Shown: in pieces, positions 41,273-54,442 of the stretch | Layout of the letters: each line of letters starts with the position of its first letter | Position numbering within the stretch: position 1 is the first letter of the stretch | Assembly (NCBI GenBank): GCA_001769655.1 | Contig: MEPC01000017.1 | Coordinates: 26,157-90,156 of the forward strand | DNA: 64,000 bases | Direction: 5' to 3' | Origin: Bacteroidetes bacterium RIFCSPLOWO2_12_FULL_37_12 | Lineage (GTDB): Bacteria; Bacteroidota; Bacteroidia; 2-12-FULL-37-12 | Notes under the pieces: generated by a model | Databases searched by the model: none | Seen by the model: only the letters and a program-made list of their open reading frames with translations | Told to the model about the DNA's origin: nothing | Made by a program: the position numbers and the translations under genes

Positions 41273-41300
41273 GTATGAATATTGATATATTTCTATTTGT

Positions 41301-41484
41301 TAATACTTTTGTAATACAGTTGTAATACGATTGTAATACAATTGTAATTCAGTTTTAATACGATTGTATTACCATTGCATTACCATTGTATTACTGTTGC
41401 ATTACCATTGTATTACTGTTGCATTACTATTGTATTACTATTGCATTACTATTGTATTACTATTGCATTACTATTGTATTACTA
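41301..41484. repeat. 11-bp tandem array switching to its complement
   Basis: About seventeen units of 11 bp run without a break. From 41301 they read TAATACNNTTG; from 41364 they read TTGTATTACYA alternating with TTGCATTACYA (eleven units, ending at 41484). The first part is largely complementary to the second, so the region can fold on itself. It lies between gatB and the redoxin gene (both minus strand). The plus-strand ORF at 41364 in the track is only the array being translated. Confidence 0.85.
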
Positions 41485-41499
41485 GTGTCCATGCTCCCC

Positions 41500-48237: not shown

Positions 48238-48270
48238 GCTGACATTTTTGAATCAATCCAGGATCCCAAT

Positions 48271-48376
48271 CACCCCTCTCCATTTTGGAGAGGGGCTGGG
48301 GTGAGGTCATTTTGAATCTATCCAGAGTCTCTTTCACCTCTCTCCATTTTGGAGAGGGGCTGGGGTGAGGTCATTT
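48271..48376. repeat. CCTCACCCC repeat, two tandem copies; second runs into copA stop
   Basis: Copies at 48271-48312 and 48335-48376 read on the minus strand as GACCTCACCCCAGCCCCTCT with a hairpin, and the flanking unit is itself duplicated with about 64-bp spacing. The second copy overlaps the end of copA, and the copA stop codon (TGA, 48371-48373) falls at its edge. Confidence 0.85.
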
Positions 48377-52672: not shown

Positions 52673-52734
52673 CGTAAACTTTAGTATTTAAAAAATTATG
52701 AACTAATTTATAGTTTTCACTTGGTGTTTTTTTT

Positions 52735-52772
52735 GCCCCTCTCCATTTTGGAGAGGGGCTGGGGTGAGGTCT
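52735..52772. repeat. CCTCACCCC repeat copy (minus orientation)
   Basis: GCCCCTCTCCATTTTGGAGAGGGGCTGGGGTGAGGT-type copy, almost identical to those at 48271 and 48335, in the gap between the barrel and NtrC-type genes. Confidence 0.85.
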
Positions 52773-52801
52773 TTTAAGTTGACGAGAATAGGTATAGGCA
52801 C

Positions 52802-52870
52802 AAAAAAAAAGGTCGATCAGATACCTGATCGACCCCATCTACCTATGAAAAAAAGTACACTGGCGTGTAC
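52802..52870 (-). terminator. Two tandem hairpins with U-tracts after the NtrC-type gene
   Basis: On the minus strand GTACAC-GCCA-GTGTAC (52870-52855) is followed by seven T, then GGTCGATCAG-GTAT-CTGATCGACC (52834-52811) is followed by nine T. Both are perfect stems in intrinsic-terminator form. They lie 116-185 bp beyond the regulator stop codon, so they may end its transcript, or form the body of a small RNA. Confidence 0.7.
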
Positions 52871-52882
52871 GATTATCATATG

Positions 52883-52898
52883 CTCAAATACTGTGCCA
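52883..52898 (-). promoter_or_regulatory. Possible sigma-54 promoter ahead of the tandem hairpins
   Basis: On the minus strand TGGCACAGTATTTGAG matches TGGCACN5TTGCA spacing exactly at the -24 part but has GA instead of GC at -12. It would start transcription around 52872, directly before the two hairpins. Confidence 0.35.
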
Positions 52899-52985
52899 GA
52901 AAAAAAAGTGCTTTATAATGCTTTATAAACGTGTTTTTATATACCATTTTCTAATTTTTGGACAAATTGTTTCATTTTGAGAAAA

Positions 52986-54338
52986 CTAATTTTGAGTATC
53001 AGCGGGTTCCCCTTCGGGTTTCATCAATCTGTAAACAGTGGACCTGCCTATTTGCAGGTGGTCGGCTACTTTCTCTATGTCATTGTTATACCTTTTAAGC
53101 AATCGTTTTATCATAAAAACCTTGATTTCATCAAGGGTATAATTATCCAACTCGATTTCTCCCTGTTGAATGATATTTGAAACAATGAAATGTTCTTTGC
53201 CAATTTCTTTACCCTCTGCCAAAATAGCAGACCTTTCGACAACGGCTTTTAATTCTCTGACATTTCCGGGCCATCCATAGCTCATTATAATCCTTATAAC
53301 ATCCGGGCTTAATTCCTTTTTCTCTAATTTATTCGACTTTATAAACTCTCTAAGGAAATGATTGGCAAGCAGAAGACAATCATCCCCTCTTTCTTTCAAT
53401 AAGGGCATATTTATTGGAAATCCGTAAAGCCGGTAGTACAGGTCTTCTCTGAATCTTCCTTTACTTACCTCTTCTTCCAGAAGTTTATTCGTTGCAACGA
53501 TAATCCTTGCATCAATCGGAATTCTTCCTGTTCCTCCAACGCGTGTGATTTCCTGCTCCTGTAATACTCTCAATAGTTTCACTTGCATTGAAAAGTCAAG
53601 TTCGGTGATTTCATCGAGGAAGAGCGTACCCCCAGTTGCTTCTTCAAATTTACCCATCCTACGGGCTAAAGCGCCGGTAAATGAGCCCTTTTCATGACCA
53701 AACAATTCGCTTTCAATTAAGTCCTTTGGAATAGCGCCCATATTGACAGATACCAGCGCCTTTTTTTTACGGGTAGAATTAAAATGGACAGCTCTGGCAA
53801 CAAGTTCTTTACCGGTACCACTTGCTCCGCTAATGCAAATTGTAATATTTGTTTGTGCGGCTTTTTTAATTAAGCTGAAAACCTTCTGCATGGGCTCGCT
53901 GACCCCGATAATATGTTGAAATTGATATTTTTCTTCCAGCGCTTCCTTAAGTTCTTCTACTTCCGTTTTCAAAGCCGCTGTTTTCATTAGAGCTCGAACG
54001 GTAACCAACAAGCGGTTTTCCCACTCTTCGCTCTTTATAATATAGTCACGAACTCCTTTTCTTAACATATTTATTGCAATCTCAACGTTGCTTTGACCTG
54101 ACAACATGATAACCGGTATTTCATTGGAAAAAGCATTAACTTGTTTAAATACATCCATCCCATTCATATCGCTTAATGAATAATCGAGAATGACAATGGA
54201 AGGTTTTTTATGCAAGTCAGCAAGCATTTTTTTTCCACTGAGGTATCTGTGGACTTCCAGTTCCGGCTCGTAACGAAGTGAGTATTCTACTAATTTTCCA
54301 AACATCTCATCGTCGTCAAGGATAAATACTTTAAACAT
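52986..54338 (-). CDS. Sigma-54-dependent response regulator, NtrC type
   Basis: This 450-residue regulator has a receiver domain with the phosphoacceptor Asp in VILDYSLSD, a central AAA+ ATPase with Walker A GASGTGKELVARAV, the sigma-54 contact loop GSFTGA (family form GAFTGA, one conservative change) and a Fis-type helix-turn-helix at the end (KVADHLQIGRSTVYRLMK). When phosphorylated such proteins bind enhancers and open sigma-54 promoters. It diverges from a PAS histidine kinase, a likely partner. A possible sigma-54 promoter and tandem terminators lie just beyond its 3' end, and a perfect 42-bp palindrome stands in its upstream region. Its target genes are not evident. Confidence 0.92.
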   Translation of the reverse strand: MFKVFILDDDEMFGKLVEYSLRYEPELEVHRYLSGKKMLADLHKKPSIVILDYSLSDMNGMDVFKQVNAFSNEIPVIMLSGQSNVEIAINMLRKGVRDYIIKSEEWENRLLVTVRALMKTAALKTEVEELKEALEEKYQFQHIIGVSEPMQKVFSLIKKAAQTNITICISGASGTGKELVARAVHFNSTRKKKALVSVNMGAIPKDLIESELFGHEKGSFTGALARRMGKFEEATGGTLFLDEITELDFSMQVKLLRVLQEQEITRVGGTGRIPIDARIIVATNKLLEEEVSKGRFREDLYYRLYGFPINMPLLKERGDDCLLLANHFLREFIKSNKLEKKELSPDVIRIIMSYGWPGNVRELKAVVERSAILAEGKEIGKEHFIVSNIIQQGEIELDNYTLDEIKVFMIKRLLKRYNNDIEKVADHLQIGRSTVYRLMKPEGEPADTQN

Positions 54339-54351
54339 GGGAATTAATTAA

Positions 54352-54442
54352 TGCGATTGTGATAAGATTGTAATACAGTGGTAATACGGTGGTAATACTA
54401 TAGTAATACAATTGTATTACTATAGTATTACCATTGTATTAA
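54352..54442. repeat. 11-bp TAATAC array containing a perfect 42-bp palindrome
   Basis: Units such as TAATACAGTGG, TAATACGGTGG and TAATACTATAG run into TATTACTATAG and TATTACCATTG, with the same 11-bp period as 41301. 54391-54432 is an exact palindrome centred on AATT. It lies between the divergent regulator and kinase genes. Confidence 0.85.

Follow-up and report, generated by a model that had tools for sequence, protein, structure and literature searches.

The window analysed here, a stretch of 64,000 nucleotides, is part of a Bacteroidota assembly (3.94 Mb in 43 contigs) that encodes one RpoN, in which the canonical RpoN box is intact. The features of interest, which are listed in Table 1, are all on the minus strand of the window. 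They include the gene for an NtrC-type response regulator, and its receiver, sigma-54 AAA+ and HTH domains bear out the initial annotation, which had placed an NtrC-type activator gene upstream of the hairpins described below. The GAFTGA-type loop of this regulator reads GSFTGA, and the same variant occurs in eight of 52 related genes. The stop codon of the regulator gene is separated by 115 nt from a predicted small RNA; the neighbour beyond the RNA is a convergent gene, and the first 2.2 kb contain no gene on the RNA's own strand. The TGGCACA-N4-TTGAG element and the two perfect hairpins followed by T7 and T9, as they were first reported from the sequence, are exact on the minus strand. The 5' end of the predicted RNA, position 52872, derives from the promoter-like element, and the structured unit itself extends from 52870 to 52802.

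Table 1. Features of the small-RNA locus in the window
Feature	Position	Strand	Evidence
NtrC-type response regulator	52986..54338	-	receiver (PF00072), sigma-54 AAA+ (PF00158) and Fis-type HTH (PF02954) domains
Perfect 10-bp direct repeat TTATAAAGCA x2, immediately upstream of the element; possible regulator site	52909..52928	-	
Sigma-54-like -24/-12 element TGGCACAGTATTTGAG, GA instead of GC at -12	52883..52898	-	sequence
Predicted small RNA, 71 nt	52802..52872	-	homologues and covariation; folding z-score -5.9
5' hairpin (hairpin 1), GTACAC-GCCA-GTGTAC, 6 bp, loop GCCA, then T7	52855..52870	-	3/6 pairs doubly changed in the paralogue, 5/6 across the family
Linker TTTTTTTCATAGGTAGATGG, mostly unpaired, proposed seed	52835..52854	-	TTTTTCATAGGTAGATG identical in 15/15 f40 copies
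Terminator hairpin (hairpin 2), GGTCGATCAG-GTAT-CTGATCGACC, 10 bp	52811..52834	-	5/10 pairs doubly changed in the paralogue
T9 tract, expected 3' end	52802..52810	-	T-tract also in the paralogue and all f40 copies

Hairpin 2 and its T9 tract have the composition of an intrinsic terminator, that is, a GC-containing stem followed by a T-tract. Hairpin 1 with its T7 also fits this pattern, but its T-run is part of the conserved linker. The folding z-score of the hairpin pair is well beyond chance. In the 464 kb sampled, just three perfect-stem hairpins that carry a T-tract were found between genes; two of them are this pair, which is the only tandem pair. Classical intrinsic terminators are rare in this genome, and in a broader scan of it (464 kb sampled) hairpins before intergenic T-runs were not more common than before A-runs. 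As the genome rarely uses such terminators, two of them together need to be explained. The other intrinsic terminators in the genome follow ordinary genes, 15-30 nt after the stop codon. The possibility that a hairpin-like repeat at 52903-52938 terminates the regulator gene was rejected, as the fold of this repeat is weak (z-score -0.4).

The genome contains a second copy of the whole unit, both hairpins and the linker, at C24:457802-457869, which was first seen as a partial DNA match at C24:457833. The paralogue consists of ACGCAC-GCCA-GUGCGU, a U-run, AUAGGUAGAUGG, a GGUCC...GGGACC stem and T9; with the window copy as its sole input, a covariance model detects this second copy at E=2e-8. When the two copies are compared, 32 of the 32 pair cells are standard and eight of the 16 pairs are changed on both sides; in the slid controls for this comparison at most 44% of the cells were paired. 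This compensatory pairing argues for one structured RNA rather than two coincidental terminators.

Conservation was compared at the class level by running the two-copy model (R2) on 395 genomes of the class. Matches at E<=0.1 occurred in 32 of the 395 genomes, which is no more than the chance expectation at that cut-off, and therefore only matches with independent support were counted; those without the CATAGGTAGATG linker (e.g., L220, L221 and L229-L239) were treated as chance. The independently supported copies number 15, spread over 14 genomes that all belong to one other family of the class (referred to as f40). All 15 have an identical 17-nt unpaired linker, UUUUUCAUAGGUAGAUG, flanked by a 5' hairpin of variable sequence and the terminator hairpin. 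Because the f40 matches have modest E-values (between 1e-4 and 7e-3 per genome, for 395 genomes), their homology to the window copy rests on the identical linker together with the shared architecture and structure. In 15 distinct sequences (both copies of this genome plus f40) 96% of the pair cells are standard, double changes occur in 12 of the 16 pairs compared with 7.0 in shuffles and no more than five in slid controls, and there are 52 double-change cells compared with 14.7 in shuffles, in an alignment that was fitted to the structure and so leans in its favour. A third model, R3, built from 16 copies, recovers a further f40 copy (L280) at E=2e-11.

A UbiX-type flavin prenyltransferase gene is located downstream of the RNA in 13 of the 15 f40 copies, an assignment that is domain-confirmed for one copy and read by eye for the others. 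In L215 the following gene is not ubiX, and L226 is followed by a convergent gene. In f40 (L211-L219, L222, L223, L227, L228 and L280) the RNA mostly ends about 25-45 nt before the UbiX-type gene, and readthrough from the RNA promoter is possible.

Neither the window copy, the paralogue nor the f40 copies match any family in Rfam 15 at the gathering cut-off. Plasmids, phages and viral contigs contain no family member by DNA similarity or by the full pattern, and the bare 16-mer in viral contigs is mostly in unrelated contexts. One viral contig (L293, 1883-1953, minus strand) has TTTTTTTCATAGGTAGATGTAG and a terminator hairpin right after the stop codon of a phage gene, a weak relative with an R3 E-value of 0.011; FopS-type seeds have been reported in phages (PMC11697453).

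Taken together, positions 52872-52802 (minus strand) very probably represent a small-RNA gene of a Bacteroidota family that is absent from Rfam 15. As the homologues and their covariation show, three parts define the family: a short variable 5' hairpin, the linker UUUUUCAUAGGUAGAUG, which is mostly unpaired, and a hairpin that acts as intrinsic terminator. Its transcription into a discrete RNA is what we infer. The initial annotation had suggested a sigma-54-driven small RNA of about 70 nt. The homologues strongly support an RNA of about this length that ends at hairpin 2, while the sigma-54 drive is a plausible hypothesis.

The promoters of the family display two patterns. The housekeeping -7 box of the phylum is TAnnTTTG (PMC9723704). 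All 15 type A copies, namely the paralogue and 14 of the 15 from f40, have a perfect match to this box, with 2-5 nt between its end and hairpin 1; by chance it would be expected at that position in about 1% of copies. Such spacing implies a transcription start for the type A RNA at, or close to, the base of the first hairpin. The type B copies, which have no proximal housekeeping box, are the window copy and L226/L281, the second copy in the f40 genome G362. Thus, this genome and G362 each have one type A and one type B copy.

Both type B copies have TGGCAC-N5-TTG at nearly the same distance from hairpin 1 (window copy, 14 nt; L226, 13 nt). With a tolerance of one position in this offset, the motif would occur by chance with a probability of about 8e-6 to 1e-5 (2.8e-6 per position). 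A sigma-54 start in the window copy, 12 nt past the -12 base at 52884, would be 52872, 2 nt before hairpin 1, and would give the RNA its 71 nt; this predicted start falls where the type A copies independently place the 5' end. The element in L226/L281 is TGGCAC-TACTT-TTG-GA, with the predicted start 1 nt before hairpin 1. Sigma-54 promoters have been described as TGGCAC plus TGC (PMC12316311). The TGGCAC at -24 is exact in the window copy and in L226; the spacing to -12 is correct, but in place of the expected GC the window copy reads GA and L226 reads GG. Conservation of the -24/-12 element in relatives had been proposed as a check, and its outcome is divided: TGGCAC-N5-TTG recurs in the same place in the remote L226/L281, but neither this copy nor that of the window has the -12 C. 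Relatives with the hairpins and without the sigma-54 element, which had been named at the outset as evidence against sigma-54 drive, do exist, namely all 15 type A copies.

The sequence of the element by itself is at chance level. The window has 14 sites with no more than two mismatches to TGGCACRNNNNTTGCW compared with 12.9 in shuffles, TGGCACRNNNNTTG occurs three times in the genome compared with four for the reversed control, and canonical sigma-54 sites show no excess in intergenic DNA. Hence, the element alone was rejected as proof of a promoter. Loose sigma-54 matches do exceed the reversed control (237 vs. 129); they were not accepted as a regulon, since in the stretches read all of them are within coding DNA.

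Nevertheless, given the placement of the element in two remote copies, there is nearly an even prospect that the promoter of the window copy is of the sigma-54 type; its activator could be the neighbouring NtrC-type regulator, in the manner of CbrB and crcZ. Somewhat short of an even chance is the explanation that the same small RNA is made without sigma-54. Here, a housekeeping sigma factor would use a displaced or degenerate box (AGTATTTG in the window, TACTTTTG in L226), with TGGCAC being an operator or an extended element, or the RNA would be a processing product of the regulator mRNA 3' end. The housekeeping box in all of the type A copies and the absence of the -12 C from both type B copies are consistent with this, as is the perfect TAnnTTTG contained in the TGGCAC-N5-TTG stretch of the G362 type B copy. 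Likewise, FopS and a form of CrcZ can arise from mRNA 3' ends (PMC11697453, PMC6292655), and the RNA is 115 nt past the stop codon of the regulator gene. However, the two boxes are 13-14 nt before hairpin 1 rather than 2-5, the one in the window matches at four of six positions, and a housekeeping box alone does not explain why two remote copies share TGGCAC-N5-TTG at an equal offset.

Two other explanations were considered. If the hairpins were solely tandem terminators of the regulator gene, which the initial annotation had regarded as the simpler reading, this would account for the location past the stop codon and for the T-tract on both hairpins, and the other intrinsic terminators of the genome do follow ordinary genes. 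These terminators, however, are 15-30 nt from the stop codon instead of 115, and the hairpins are absent at all of the regulator orthologues checked (n=52). Furthermore, the linker is the most conserved part, the hairpins covary as a unit, and the homologues are located away from regulator genes and have their own promoters, so that we now consider tandem terminators very unlikely. A cis-acting leader or attenuator, in which hairpin 1 and the linker control read-through of the terminator into the following gene, is just as improbable. The short distance to most of the f40 UbiX-type genes leaves little room for a promoter of their own, but the convergent genes after the window copy and L226, the lack of a same-strand gene within 2.2 kb in the window and the different gene after L215 all argue against it.

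Among the regulator orthologues, none of 52 downstream flanks has a strong terminator or such an RNA, and four of 52 have a loose sigma-54-like match. The family model finds no member at 54 related regulator loci (best E-value 0.17), within 6 kb of the G362 type B copy there is no activator gene, and an activator gene adjoins no family copy other than that of the window. Therefore, the adjacency in the window is suggestive only, and the neighbouring activator may control the RNA. The best precedent is CbrB-CrcZ of Pseudomonas and Azotobacter, in which the small-RNA gene directly follows the gene of an NtrC-type activator and the crcZ promoter is activated by CbrB; this promoter is strictly RpoN-dependent, with some co-transcript (PMC6292655, PMC6296734). 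CrcZ differs in that it is longer and titrates Crc/Hfq (PMC6292655, PMC6296734). In addition, the two RNAs are not related in sequence, and the sigma-54 step is established there but predicted here. The LuxO-Qrr system of Vibrio (RF00378) likewise consists of multicopy sigma-54-driven small RNAs, one of which adjoins the activator gene. It belongs to another phylum and differs in sequence, Qrr scoring 15.7 of 50 bits on the window copy.

With no same-strand gene downstream, the window copy is expected to act in trans. The sequences to which its linker is complementary are AUGAAAAA, a start region; CAUCUACCUAUGAAAAA, in which lysine codons come after the start codon; and CCAUCUACCUAUGAAAAAAA, a start codon with its surroundings. 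Given the complementarity to CAUCUACCUAUGAAAAA, the most likely mode of action would be a FopS-like repression of translation initiation, in which the linker pairs with start regions of the ACCUAUGAAA type. Complementary start regions are not enriched among the 1139 genes scanned, and no RRM protein was seen by motif in the 40% of the genome examined. In a viral contig (L291, 7818-7850), the start region CATCTACCTATGAAAAAC of a gene encoding MKNTLRTLR... is, whether or not by coincidence, exactly complementary to the linker.

The known small RNAs that resemble the family most are FopS and GibS of Bacteroides (RF04319, RF04182). Their seed with UUUUUCAU...UAGAU blocks start codons, and FopS, which binds RbpB, represses the translation of SusC-type mRNAs (PMC11697453, PMC7366714). 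FopS is 65-70 nt long, is present in several copies per genome and has an intrinsic terminator; both RNAs have the unpaired U-rich stretch UUUUUCAU...UAGAU that pairs with start-codon regions, and most copies have a housekeeping promoter, with a different promoter for one relative (GibS). The window copy contains a U-rich unpaired FopS-like seed plus a terminator hairpin (UUUUUUUCAUAGGUAGAUGG), a likeness and not a membership. Unlike the family described here, FopS has no 5' hairpin before the seed, and the linker sequence diverges after CAU. Among Rfam models FopS has the highest bit score on the window copy (21 of 56 bits) and GibS is the best match of the paralogue (33.6 of 115 bits), both far below the gathering cut-off. 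Rfp18 of Flavobacterium psychrophilum (PMC9723704), compared by description only, is likewise a conserved structured intergenic small RNA of the Bacteroidota.

Few small RNAs are known in Bacteroidota outside of Bacteroides and Flavobacterium, and the new family adds one with strong covariation and an invariant linker, located near ubiX in one family of the class. As the linker is similar to the GibS/FopS seed, seeds of the anti-start-codon type may extend beyond the Bacteroidaceae within the phylum. More tentatively, and with a probability that we would place below even, two sigma factors may drive different paralogues of the family, one copy having a housekeeping promoter and a second copy a sigma-54-type promoter, the second copy here being located beside an NtrC-type activator gene. 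In the literature searched, no sigma-54-driven small RNA was found in Bacteroidota. If the reading with two sigma factors is true, it would imply a CbrB-CrcZ-like circuit in this phylum, with the seed read as anti-start-codon, and the differently promoted second copy is a testable case for such a circuit of activator and small RNA.

Two types of repeats surround the locus. A dispersed repeat, CCTCACCCCAGCCCCTCTCCAAAATGGAGAGGGGC, starts just past the small RNA at 52687-52776, is also found near 48246-48376 and has about 50 copies in the genome. The heptamer GTAATAC forms arrays with 4-nt spacers (an 11-bp period), often as two facing blocks, at 54367-54442, at 41300-41488 and throughout the genome; one array is located between the regulator gene and a divergent histidine kinase gene. 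Matches to three successive GTAATAC units number 202 in the genome, compared with none for the reversed control.
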